From Verrucomicrobiota bacterium (GTDB lineage Bacteria; Verrucomicrobiota; Verrucomicrobiia; Limisphaerales; J093), in contig JAAYVR010000158.1 of NCBI GenBank assembly GCA_012517065.1, positions 1 to 35,377 on the forward strand: DNA of 35,377 nucleotides. The letters run 5' to 3'. Of this stretch, positions 294 to 6,911 are shown piece by piece (within the stretch, counting starts at the first letter, position 1; the number at the start of each line of letters is the position of its first letter). The notes beneath the pieces were generated by a model. That model ran no database searches, was not told where the DNA came from, and saw only the letters and a list, made by a program, of their open reading frames with translations. Both the position numbers and the translations under genes were made by a program.

Positions 294-2456
294 TTGCGAC
301 GGCGACGCAGATTCTCCATTATGATGGCAAGCATGGTCCGGCTCGTAGTCTTTGCTCTTGGAATATCGAGTGTGGTTGCTCAACTGACGCTCCTGCGGGA
401 ATTGTTGGCCGCGTTCCATGGCAACGAACTCGCGCTTGGGGTTTTTCTTGGCAACTGGCTGTTGTTGACGGGAGTTGGCGCTGCGATGGGGCGGCGCGCG
501 AAAGGTGGACGACGAGGTGAAGGGCAGTTGATCCGGGGGCAACTTTGGATCGCAGTTACGCCGGTTTTGGGGTTGCTCGCCCTGCGAGTGTTGCGAGATG
601 TACTATTTATGCGCGGGGCCGACGTCGGAATACCGGCGGCGATGCTTGGCAGCATTGTGGTTTTGGGGCCGTATTGTCTGATGTCGGGTTATGTACTGAC
701 CCTCGGCGTCGCGCTGTTGAGCAACGTCGAAGGCGGCAAGGGGCTGGGGACAGTGTACGTTGCTGACAGTATTGGCAGTGTGGTGGGAGGGCTTGCATTT
801 ACCTTCGTCCTGACACGCTGGCTAGATCATTTCGCGATACTATGGTGCGTTGGGTGGCTGAGCTTAATCGCGGCCGCATATTGTGGCTATGTTTGGAGGA
901 AAGAGAGGACAAGACTGGTTTGGGGGTTGATGGCAGTGGCATGGATTGTGGTGGGCGTTTCAGGCGTGGACGCATGGTCCACGCGCCGTCAGTTTCCGGG
1001 TCAGGAGATTGTTTTTACGGGGAATTCACCTTACGGGCGGGTGGTTCTAACGCGCGCGGACGGACAACTGAATTTGAGCGAGAACGGCGTGGCAACACCG
1101 TTGGCCGCAGATCCGGCACGCGTTGAAGAAACAGTCCTATGCGCTCTAGCACAACGTCCTGATGCGCGGCATGTGCTGTTATTGGGCGGTGGAGTGACGG
1201 GCACGGGACGACTTTTGCTCGAACACGGTGTTGCGCGTGTCACGTATGTTGAACTTGATCCTCTGGTCGTGGAATTGGGCCGGCGGTTTTTGCCCGAGAA
1301 CCTCGACGACCCGAGAATGGAGGTGTTGGCGACTGACGGACGCCGCCATCTACGATCAACCACGAACAGGTACGACATCGTGATAATCGACACTCCGGAC
1401 CCGGTAACATCGCAACTGAACCGGTTATACACAGTTGAGTTCTTTGCTCGAGTCAAGAAAGTGTTGAACCCGAACGGCGTCATCGGATTTGGTCTCAGCA
1501 GGTACGAGAATACCGTGAGTCCTGAACTCGAACGGATTCTGGCCACGGCCCACCGGTCGCTGTGTGAGGTGTTCGGCCGGGTGTTGATGTTACCTCTTGG
1601 CCGCGTGTTTTTTGTCGCCTCGGACGGCGAACTGTACACGGATGTTGCCGAACGGCTGAGCAGGAGCCCGGATCAGATTCAGTGGATGAAAACTTCGTAC
1701 CTGCGCGCAATGCTGAGTGAGGACCGAATGTCCGATATGCAGCGTGCGGTGTCGGCACCTGCCATGCTGAACACCGATTTCCGGCCTGTGCTGTATTTTC
1801 TGAATCTACGGCACTGGCTAAGCCAATTTGGAAAAGTACCGACCGTATTTGTTGTGCTGCTTGTGGTGGCCGTTGCTCTGTATGTCTGGCGGGTGGGAAC
1901 GGTATCGAGGGCTGTGCTGGCGTCGGGGGTGGCGGCATCTTCGTTGGAGGTTGCATTATTATTAGCAGTGCAAGTTGCTTGTGGTGCGTTGTATCAGCAG
2001 TTGGGATTGGTGGTAGCGGTGTTCATGGCCGGACTTGCGATGGGCGGATGGCTTGGCCGCGAAGCGCTGTGGTTGTCTCCGAGGCGAAGCTTGGGTCGGC
2101 TCGTTACAGGCATTGGTCTTTACGCGGTTGTGTTGCCGTGGACACTTCAATGGATAGTGGGCGGGGCGGGTGGCGGGGTTGGAATGGGTGTTGCAATGGC
2201 ATGGATTCTGTTGTTGACCGTTATGCTCGCGGTGCTGGTGGGCGCGGTGTTTCCCATCGCCGGGCGGGCGCTGGCGTCGGAATTTGTGAGTTCAGCTTCA
2301 AGATTATACACAGCGGATTTTGTTGGGGCATGGCTTGGTGCAGTTTTGGCGGGCGAGGTGTTAATACCTGTCATTGGAGTAGCGGGCATGTGCAGGGCGG
2401 TGGCGGCTTTCGTCATTGCATGTGGGATTGCGGTTCTGGCAACGAAGCGGGTGTAA
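294..2456 (+). CDS. membrane-embedded spermidine-synthase-like protein
   Basis: A 720-residue protein with several hydrophobic helices at both ends and a soluble class I methyltransferase-fold domain in the middle (about residues 230-480). The middle carries a glycine-rich cofactor loop, VLLLGGGVTGTG, near residue 293, an acidic residue in VTYVELD, DGRRHL near 350, and YDIVIIDTPDP near 361, all matching the spermidine synthase (SpeE) fold. Membrane-fused SpeE-like proteins are common in this type of bacterium and their true substrate is usually unknown, so aminopropyl transfer is only a possibility. The frame opens with TTG at 294; ATG codons at 321, 324 and 333 are alternative starts, 333 giving a start right at the first helix. 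A small membrane protein follows after 42 bases and a radical SAM gene after that, suggesting one operon. Confidence 0.8.
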   Translation: MRRRRRFSIMMASMVRLVVFALGISSVVAQLTLLRELLAAFHGNELALGVFLGNWLLLTGVGAAMGRRAKGGRRGEGQLIRGQLWIAVTPVLGLLALRVLRDVLFMRGADVGIPAAMLGSIVVLGPYCLMSGYVLTLGVALLSNVEGGKGLGTVYVADSIGSVVGGLAFTFVLTRWLDHFAILWCVGWLSLIAAAYCGYVWRKERTRLVWGLMAVAWIVVGVSGVDAWSTRRQFPGQEIVFTGNSPYGRVVLTRADGQLNLSENGVATPLAADPARVEETVLCALAQRPDARHVLLLGGGVTGTGRLLLEHGVARVTYVELDPLVVELGRRFLPENLDDPRMEVLATDGRRHLRSTTNRYDIVIIDTPDPVTSQLNRLYTVEFFARVKKVLNPNGVIGFGLSRYENTVSPELERILATAHRSLCEVFGRVLMLPLGRVFFVASDGELYTDVAERLSRSPDQIQWMKTSYLRAMLSEDRMSDMQRAVSAPAMLNTDFRPVLYFLNLRHWLSQFGKVPTVFVVLLVVAVALYVWRVGTVSRAVLASGVAASSLEVALLLAVQVACGALYQQLGLVVAVFMAGLAMGGWLGREALWLSPRRSLGRLVTGIGLYAVVLPWTLQWIVGGAGGGVGMGVAMAWILLLTVMLAVLVGAVFPIAGRALASEFVSSASRLYTADFVGAWLGAVLAGEVLIPVIGVAGMCRAVAAFVIACGIAVLATKRV

Positions 2457-2498
2457 TGGTCTTAGTCAGGCCGGGTCGATAAACGGCAAGGGCCTCGA

Positions 2499-2819
2499 AT
2501 GGCAAAGTGGCGAGCGATGTTTGCGCAAATGTTCCAGCGTAGTGGTGCGATAATGCTTAAGACTGTCAGGTGGAGCGGATGGCCGCTGTTCGTAGTTGTG
2601 ATCGGATTCATCGTAACAGGATACGCGACCAGCGGGCGGTACGGCATGGGCAAACTGATTGACGCTCGGACCGCGATGGCGCTGCACAAGCTGTTGCATT
2701 TGCCGCTGTTGGTTCTGTTGCTTGTGCATGCGTTGCCGGCGATGTATCTTGCTGTTCGTCGATGGGGATTGTTTGCGAAGACAAGCCGCATCAAATGCAA
2801 TCCAAAGAGTCAGAACTGA
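2499..2819 (+). CDS. small two-helix membrane protein, possible cytochrome b-like fragment
   Basis: A 106-residue protein with two predicted membrane helices, at about residues 28-45 (WPLFVVVIGFIVTGYA) and 65-85 (LPLLVLLLVHALPAMYLAV). The second helix region carries three histidines in the order LHKLLH and LLVH, a layout seen in b-type cytochromes and DUF4405-like proteins. Haem binding is inference, because two helices are fewer than in known cytochromes b. The start is supported by AAGGG six bases upstream. It sits between the SpeE-like membrane protein and the radical SAM enzyme on the same strand with short gaps, so it may be an electron-transfer or anchoring partner of the latter. Confidence 0.65.
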   Translation: MAKWRAMFAQMFQRSGAIMLKTVRWSGWPLFVVVIGFIVTGYATSGRYGMGKLIDARTAMALHKLLHLPLLVLLLVHALPAMYLAVRRWGLFAKTSRIKCNPKSQN

Positions 2820-2845
2820 TCGCGGATGCCCGAGGACGGCACCTG

Positions 2846-4099
2846 ATGAGCCGACGCAACGCGCTTCGGGTGGGGGGCGTGACCTGTGGCGGATTGGTTG
2901 GCGCAGCGTCCATTTGGTCCCTGCTTCGGAGGGTAGCCCGTGACACAGAGCCGGCGGATGTTTTCCGGGGCGACGCCCCGAGCGACGAAGTATGGGCGCT
3001 ATGGCAAAAGCGCGGATGGGTCAAGGAAGCAAGGCACTACATCAAACTCGAACGCAACGTCCAGTGCAAGGTTTGCCCAAACAACTGCGTGCTCGAGCCC
3101 GGCGATAGAAGTCACTGCAGGAACAAGGTGAATCGCGATGGCACACTCTGGACAATGGCGTACGCAAACCCTTGCACTTTTCACGTGGATCCGGTCGAGA
3201 AAAAGCCATTGTTTCATTTCCTGCCGGGCACGATGACCTTTTCTCTGGCGACGTCTGGCTGTGTGTTCAGATGCCTGAACTGCCAGAACTGGGAAATCTC
3301 ACAAAAGAAACCCGAGGAAACCAAAGACCCGCGCGGTCCGGAGTACCGGCTTAAAACGCCTGTTCCTACATCTCTAACGCTCGGGCAATTGCGTGCCCTG
3401 AGCTTGTTTCCCGAGGATGTAGCGTCGGTTGCGGATGAGTTGGGATGTCCATCCGTTTCTTACACCTACTCAGAGCCGACGGCGTATTACGAATATACGC
3501 AGGATTGTTCGAGGGCAGTGCGGGAGAGGAAGCTCAAGAACATTCTTGTGAGCTGCGGATCGATTGAAGAACGCCCGTTGCGCGATCTTGCGCAGTACAT
3601 CGACGCCGCGCACATCGATTTGAAGGGTTTCGACGACGAGACTTACCGGAAGCTGAACTCGGGCAGGCTCGAGCCGATTTTGAATACACTCAAGACCCTG
3701 AAATCAATGGGGGTGTGGGTCGAGGTCATCAATCTGATGGTTCCGACCTATACGGACAATATCGAGGTCGTGAAACGGATGTGCGGTTGGCTGGTCGAGA
3801 ACGTCGGCCCGGACACGCCCCTGCATTTCTCGAGGTTTCATCCGCAACACAAGCTCACACACCTGCCGCCGACGCCGATCAACACCCTGCTGCGTGCTCG
3901 TGAGGTTGCCAGGGCTGCGGGGCTTCATTTTGTGTACATAGGGAATGTTCTCGGAGTGCCCGAGGCAGAAACAACGTTTTGTCCGAACTGCAAACGCGCA
4001 ATAATCGAGCGCGACATCTACGCGATAAAATCTTTGAAAATCGACAACGGCAAGTGCGGTTATTGCCAAAGCCCGGTGGCGGGTGTGTGGAAAGCATAA
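2846..4099 (+). CDS. amrS: AmmeMemoRadiSam-type radical SAM enzyme with Tat-like N-terminus
   Basis: A radical SAM enzyme of the AmrS family (related to pyruvate formate-lyase activases). An N-terminal Cys cluster CKVCPNNC (about residues 74-81) plus a Cys at 91 is followed by the family signature HVDPVEKKPLFHFLPGT and the 4Fe-4S motif CVFRCLNC at about 139-146. A zinc-ribbon-like tail has CPNC and CGYC. The start at ATG 2846 is chosen because GAGGA lies nine bases upstream; the frame is open back to ATG 2762, overlapping the previous gene. From this start the protein begins MSRRNALRVGG followed by a hydrophobic stretch, resembling a Tat signal or membrane anchor without a clear AxA cleavage site. 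That is odd for an enzyme needing cytoplasmic SAM. The usual partners, AMMECR1 and MEMO1 proteins, are not in the window. Confidence 0.85.
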   Translation: MSRRNALRVGGVTCGGLVGAASIWSLLRRVARDTEPADVFRGDAPSDEVWALWQKRGWVKEARHYIKLERNVQCKVCPNNCVLEPGDRSHCRNKVNRDGTLWTMAYANPCTFHVDPVEKKPLFHFLPGTMTFSLATSGCVFRCLNCQNWEISQKKPEETKDPRGPEYRLKTPVPTSLTLGQLRALSLFPEDVASVADELGCPSVSYTYSEPTAYYEYTQDCSRAVRERKLKNILVSCGSIEERPLRDLAQYIDAAHIDLKGFDDETYRKLNSGRLEPILNTLKTLKSMGVWVEVINLMVPTYTDNIEVVKRMCGWLVENVGPDTPLHFSRFHPQHKLTHLPPTPINTLLRAREVARAAGLHFVYIGNVLGVPEAETTFCPNCKRAIIERDIYAIKSLKIDNGKCGYCQSPVAGVWKA

Positions 4100-6561: not shown

Positions 6562-6718
6562 ACCTTTCCTGGCCCACCACGACGAGTTTTCCGCGCATAA
6601 ACCGTTGGTAATAATACAAAGTTTTGGGGAATAGGTATCAGCCCAAATTCTGGTTCGAGGACCTCTGTGCGGCGAGATCAGTAAGTCTGGCCTGATAACC
6701 GATGGTACGGCCTGTTTC

Positions 6719-6911
6719 GATCAAGCAAATCCGACGACCGAACACCCACCGGCTGGGTGCGGCCAAGAATGGCCGCGCTCCTGCACGCGCTGGAAAAGGC
6801 AACGGCGCCGGGAGCGCGGCCGTCCTCGGCCGCATCAACGTGACGACCGACCCTACGACCAGCTTGGATCACGCAAATCCTGCGCCCGAACATTCCCCGG
6901 CTGGGGATGCA
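6719..6911 (+). repeat. two diverged copies of a ~45-base hairpin repeat
   Basis: Copies start at 6719 and 6867, 148 bases apart. Both begin GATCA, then GCAAATCC, then CCGAACA, and end in a hairpin: CACCCA / TGGGTG around CCGGC at 6743-6759, and TCCCC / GGGGA around GGCT at 6894-6907. The stems differ in sequence but keep pairing, which suggests selection or targeting at the structure level. Confidence 0.6.
6759..6833. repeat. pair of GC-rich tetraloop hairpins
   Basis: GCGGCCA-AGAA-TGGCCGC at 6759-6776 and GCGGCCG-TCCT-CGGCCGC at 6816-6833 each have a perfect 7-base stem and 4-base loop, with a paired change at the seventh stem position. They fit the general form of short REP palindromes. 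Confidence 0.6.

Follow-up and report, generated by a model that had tools for sequence, protein, structure and literature searches.

An operon for an MFS–SpeE membrane protein, a small histidine-bearing membrane protein and a Tat-type AmrS as probable part of an extracytoplasmic AmmeMemoRadiSam system

The window analysed here, a stretch of 35,377 nucleotides forming the entire contig C4 of a fragmented metagenome-assembled genome (MAG; 5.26 Mb, 298 contigs, 95% complete) whose closest named relatives are Verrucomicrobiota, carries at its left end (294–4099) three co-directional open reading frames: gene A, encoding a membrane protein with a SpeE-like domain; gene B, encoding a two-helix membrane protein with conserved histidines; and gene C, encoding AmrS, a radical S-adenosylmethionine (SAM) enzyme with a twin-arginine (Tat)-type N-terminus. 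Judged from sequence, these genes are probably part of an extracytoplasmic, Tat-exported AmmeMemoRadiSam system, and the system to which they belong is widespread among bacteria and archaea and apparently undescribed. More tentatively, and with slightly less than even confidence, we propose that many anaerobic bacteria and archaea carry out radical SAM catalysis outside the cytoplasm using an exported AmrS and Memo–AMMECR1, with electrons arriving through a minimal haem or NapH-type protein and SAM through an MFS transporter bearing an outside SAM-type domain.

The operon is conserved well beyond this genome. A scan of genome contigs, nearly all from MAGs, yielded 80 loci chosen by AmrS similarity and not by neighbours or signal region, and these span Verrucomicrobiota, Planctomycetota, Desulfobacterota-type ‘Deltaproteobacteria’, Bacteroidota, Chlorobiota, Acidobacteriota and Sumerlaeota, as well as the archaeal Woesearchaeota, Aenigmatarchaeota, Nanoarchaeota and Theionarchaea. 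Homologues of A occur in 61 of the 80 loci (directly upstream of AmrS in 58, by a position rule), AMMECR1 in 50 and Memo in 39, the latter two mostly as a single fusion protein. The AmrS proteins of 58 relatives form two groups, 63–95% and about 30–44% identical to the window protein; in the former, conservation extends into the twin-arginine region and, wherever there is enough flanking sequence, the gene order is fusion, A, B, AmrS. A same-genus relative keeps all three genes at 90–95% identity, as the triplet only and without a linked fusion. A chance arrangement of genes was rejected, because the triplet is kept in this relative and its order recurs across phyla. In addition, A tracks the exported form of AmrS: among 20 close relatives, orthologues of A are present in all six with an exported-type AmrS and in none of the 14 without.

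The signals carried by AmrS and its partner are consistent with export. The window AmrS begins MSRRNALRVGG, and a twin-basic motif followed by a hydrophobic stretch was found by pattern in 74 of the 80 clade members (47 RR, 14 KR, 13 RK); of the six pattern misses, three show the motif by eye (L081, L083, L127) and each of the others is truncated or frameshifted. The 20 AmrS proteins examined from the cytoplasmic clade show no twin-basic motif and no hydrophobic stretch. In a tree of the AmrS catalytic part, built without the N-terminus, the export label changes four times as against 29.5 for shuffled labels, and the uncertain placements lie near cytoplasmic AmrS of DPANN archaea. Likewise, a signal-peptide-like stretch is present in 38 of 39 Memo-containing proteins (ten with a lipobox), the exception being 5′-truncated.

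These results bear on the preliminary description of this DNA, which had proposed a membrane-associated radical SAM set made up of these three products. The set itself is real and conserved, as is its Tat-type signal, and the triplet is found in relatives, its lack from all of which had been named as grounds for abandoning the proposal. What does not stand is the claim that the system occurs without AMMECR1 and MEMO1: in most relatives the fusion is encoded within or beside the operon, and here on another contig (C49), with an N-terminus (SKLTAVLLTAALLCGSAC) that resembles an export or lipoprotein signal. A second, cytoplasmic-type AmrS adjoins Memo on contig C203, such that the genome does hold AMMECR1, Memo and a cytoplasmic AmrS, the combination that was to have overturned the proposal. 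It leaves the finding intact, because the only AMMECR1 detected in this genome is the exported fusion on C49, which in other genomes is the partner of this type of AmrS.

That this AmrS may be a Tat client is supported most strongly by the occurrence and linkage of tatC. TatC was found in 25 of 26 genomes tested, including this one (contig C263), and the features by which a Tat substrate is recognized from sequence (twin-basic motif, hydrophobic stretch, tatC in the genome) are all present. Within the DPANN order that includes a Woesearchaeota-named genome, only 10 of 145 genomes encode TatC and all ten carry an exported-type AmrS, a co-occurrence with Fisher p = 8e-14 uncorrected for relatedness; two TatC-negative MAGs of the order also have an exported-type AmrS. 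Where genomes of this order lack exported AmrS, AMMECR1 is mostly free-standing and has no signal-like stretch (exception, G040). Moreover, seven archaeal genomes (L176–L181, L194) have tatC no more than a few kilobases from the AmrS, fusion or A (SpeE) genes. Among DPANN archaea whose genomes measure about 1 Mb, tatC is seldom found and clusters with genes for the exported AmrS, and the exported AmrS system may be the main reason that such archaea retain a Tat translocase at all.

The preliminary description had favoured a membrane-tethered complex facing the cytoplasm, in which the N-terminal helix of AmrS would merely be an anchor, as in viperin, a radical SAM enzyme tied by such a helix to the cytosolic face of the endoplasmic reticulum. 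This arrangement ranks second among the readings and is chemically the easiest, as SAM and reductants are cytoplasmic; the single N-terminal helix of the window AmrS, with no obvious cleavage site, would suit it too. We nevertheless consider it improbable: twin-basic residues ahead of the helix would place the N-terminus inside and the C-terminus outside, several Desulfobacterota AmrS proteins have Ala-X-Ala sites after the helix, the partner fusion has Sec or lipoprotein signals, tatC co-occurs with and is linked to AmrS, and the SpeE domain of A is predicted to lie outside. Viperin shares the membrane helix with AmrS, but is oriented towards the cytosol and lacks a Tat signal.

Gene A belongs to a family of fused MFS/spermidine synthase proteins. 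It matches PF01564 (2.6e-23) and the MFS_SpdSyn subfamily NF037959 (69.9 bits, cut-off 40), and its SpeE domain is found by phmmer to resemble the SpeE structures 1uir/3anx (E 3.6e-22), the best match by phmmer and Foldseek being T. thermophilus SpeE at 29% identity. An AlphaFold2 model from 43 homologues (pLDDT 86.5, pTM 0.87) has helices 1–6 and 9–14 in an MFS fold, with linker helices 7 and 8 flanking an inserted SpeE domain; its fold matches include VMAT2 (Z 27.9 over 340 residues, root-mean-square deviation 3.6) and MHAS2168 (Z 21.2). A resembles other fused proteins of this kind (NF037959; COG4262-like PRK03612) in that a SpeE domain follows its N-terminal membrane helices, but unlike them it has a second MFS half after that domain, giving a complete 14-helix MFS fold, and it strictly accompanies exported AmrS. 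The lysine-plus-arginine values of its loops are 1.5, 3.5, 2.8 and 1.5 inside and 0, 0 and 0.5 outside, and therefore the N- and C-termini are predicted inside and the SpeE domain on the extracytoplasmic side.

It might be argued that A is a polyamine synthase or transporter that merely shares the operon, given its MFS_SpdSyn membership and the spermidine synthase fold of its domain. This strikes us as rather unlikely, as A falls far under the spermidine synthase equivalog cut-offs (TIGR00417, 88 of 249.55 bits; PRK00811, 101 of 260; PRK03612, 159 of 472), its orthologues track exported AmrS while other MFS–SpeE paralogues (many in frames of 850–1150 aa) do not, and the SpeE catalytic aspartate positions D357 and D360 vary between D and N and between D and E across the family. 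By alignment, the adenosine-pocket residues E311 and D339 are kept in 42 and 43 of 43 A sequences, respectively, from which we infer that the domain binds a SAM-type ligand and does not make polyamines. That the MFS part moves SAM would fit the need, but is a guess. The genome also encodes longer MFS–SpeE paralogues (G000:C10:10433-10819 and G000:C2:14613-15320; frames of about 1065–1153 aa) that are not tied to AmrS.

AmrS itself has the hallmarks of a radical SAM enzyme. It exceeds the TIGR04337 AmrS cut-off (335.3 bits against 220) with CX3CX2C intact, all eleven cysteines (four N-terminal, three radical SAM, four C-terminal) are invariant in 40 sequences, and its model comprises one N-terminal helix and a body with pLDDT mostly above 90. 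Its nearest fold by Foldseek, also the closest solved one, is pyruvate formate-lyase activating enzyme, which has the same CX3CX2C motif; AmrS differs from glycyl radical activases in its extra four-cysteine sites at both ends and in being exported-type, no glycyl radical enzyme was noticed adjoining it, and it lies below all glycyl radical activase cut-offs (best 52 bits against 250). The very improbable suggestion that the proteins are exported but AmrS serves only as a structural or electron-transfer iron–sulphur protein, doing no SAM radical chemistry outside, draws on the want of a known SAM source there and on the unconserved D357/D360, but runs against the invariance of CX3CX2CQNW in 40 homologues (with the Glu of Y-x-EP nearly so) and the SAM bound in the closest fold. 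All three components of AmmeMemoRadiSam (TIGR04335, protein A/AMMECR1; TIGR04336, protein B/Memo; TIGR04337, AmrS) exceed their NCBIfam cut-offs and share its cysteine motifs; the differences are the Tat-type signal on AmrS, the fused and exported-type Memo–AMMECR1 and the two membrane proteins in the operon, the cytoplasmic version being a separate paralogue in the same genome.

Gene B may supply the electrons. Its product has no significant match in Pfam, NCBIfam or PDB, and family searches gave only sub-threshold hits to CopD (0.023) and DUF2427 (0.09), in one member each. The H-x13-H pair of its second helix is kept across bacterial and archaeal homologues, except for two rows of one sequence with a spacing of 16, which lends plausibility to the earlier idea that the small protein binds haem. 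We take this spacing to be that of the b-haem ligands on one helix of cytochrome b, and a dimer of B, as a candidate b-haem protein, could therefore hold haem across the membrane. Six archaeal genomes without B encode, beside AmrS, a NapH-type (Fer4_5, CxxxCP) membrane 4Fe-4S protein instead; this neighbour shares those motifs with the NapH/MauN ferredoxin-type quinol dehydrogenase subunits, but matches NapH models weakly and adjoins AmrS, not nitrate reductase. The histidine pair and its archaeal substitute suggest, at the level of sequence, electron delivery to AmrS.

We envisage, then, that AmrS would fold and gain its [4Fe-4S] cluster(s) in the cytoplasm, probably before Tat export, and would act on the outside of the cytoplasmic membrane with the Sec-exported, sometimes lipoprotein, Memo–AMMECR1 fusion. 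B or, in several archaea, the NapH-type Fe–S protein would carry electrons across the membrane to drive the reductive cleavage of SAM, and the MFS–SpeE protein would either supply SAM outside or handle a SAM-derived product there by means of its outward SAM-type domain. The inward orientation proposed earlier thus gives way to an outward one, to which the Tat signal, the exported fusion, the outward SpeE domain and the tatC linkage all point.

Several observations weigh against this outward system. First, the Memo–AMMECR1 fusion is unlinked to the triplet in this genus, and neither Bacteroidota nor most Desulfobacterota have B, which leaves the electron route there unexplained. Second, Bacteroidota carry KR and many Desulfobacterota RK in place of RR, both being weaker Tat signals than RR; one Bacteroidota MAG with a KR-type signal has no detected TatC, nor have two archaeal MAGs with exported-type AmrS (G096, locus L190; G168, L191), in which incompleteness or another export route may be the cause. 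Third, the window AmrS has no clear signal-peptidase site and is therefore probably membrane-anchored. Finally, we know of no established source of extracytoplasmic SAM.

To our knowledge, radical SAM enzymes are treated as cytoplasmic because they depend on SAM, on a strong reductant and on an oxygen-sensitive cluster, and their chemistry is not known from beyond the cell membrane. If an exported version is indeed conserved, SAM and low-potential electrons would have to be available on the far side of the membrane, and Memo and AMMECR1, an uncharacterised pair related to human MEMO1 and AMMECR1, would gain a new context in which they can be tested. Our literature search returned no paper describing a radical SAM enzyme that is exported, periplasmic or anchored in the membrane, and none on AmmeMemoRadiSam with SpeE; the main earlier analysis of Memo contexts lay outside that search, and a prior description is possible. 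Memo gene contexts were reportedly analysed by Burroughs in 2019, a study that PMC7159879 cites. In PMC13386939, AMMECR1 is the top marker of anaerobes.

Table 1. Features of the operon in the window and NapH-type genes at archaeal loci.
Feature	Position	Strand	Basis or remark
Gene A, MFS–SpeE membrane protein, 711 aa	321..2456	+	14 predicted transmembrane helices; SpeE domain flanked by linker helices 7 and 8
SpeE-like Rossmann domain of A, residues 214-500, predicted extracytoplasmic	960..1820	+	phmmer, Foldseek, topology
Gene B, 106 aa two-helix membrane protein, conserved histidines, candidate b-haem electron carrier	2499..2819	+	
H63-x13-H77 pair, second helix of B	2685..2729	+	B homologue comparison
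Gene C, exported-type AmrS radical SAM enzyme	2846..4099	+	Alternative start ATG 2795
Twin-arginine signal/anchor helix of AmrS (MSRRNALRVGGVTCGGLVGAASIWSLLRRV...)	2846..2947	+	Conserved twin-basic motif; single helix 3-34 in model
Radical SAM CX3CX2C motif of AmrS (C139, C143, C146)	3260..3283	+	Invariant, 40 homologues
NapH-type gene	L176:6404-7114	-	Adjoins exported AmrS
NapH-type gene	L178:4930-5667	+	Adjoins exported AmrS
NapH-type gene	L181:6863-7534	-	Adjoins exported AmrS
NapH-type gene	L182:4900-5718	+	Adjoins exported AmrS
NapH-type gene	L186:5491-6222	-	Adjoins exported AmrS
NapH-type gene	L191:1266-2015	-	Adjoins exported AmrS

Two of the gene starts call for comment. For A, the TTG at 294 used in the preliminary description is possible, but the ATG at 321 is likelier, the resulting MMASMVRL start being backed by the sister genome; for C, conservation favours the ATG at 2846 over that at 2795.

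Two further observations concern the assembly and the contig end. First, a repeat of about 149 bp, frequently arranged as short tandem arrays, is dispersed through the genome, with 110 matches, many of them at contig ends; it occurs in the window (6690–6850) and on contig C49 (G000:C49:22303-22982; L009:10272-10983), and is probably a cause of the fragmented assembly. Second, where the contig ends, immediately upstream of the operon, a truncated open reading frame on the minus strand (3–128; MRLPRIKLQGKTVLYHCMSRIVGKEHLLDQL) looks like the start of a REP-associated transposase; this piece has no Pfam match. The contig of the sister genome likewise stops shortly upstream of the operon.

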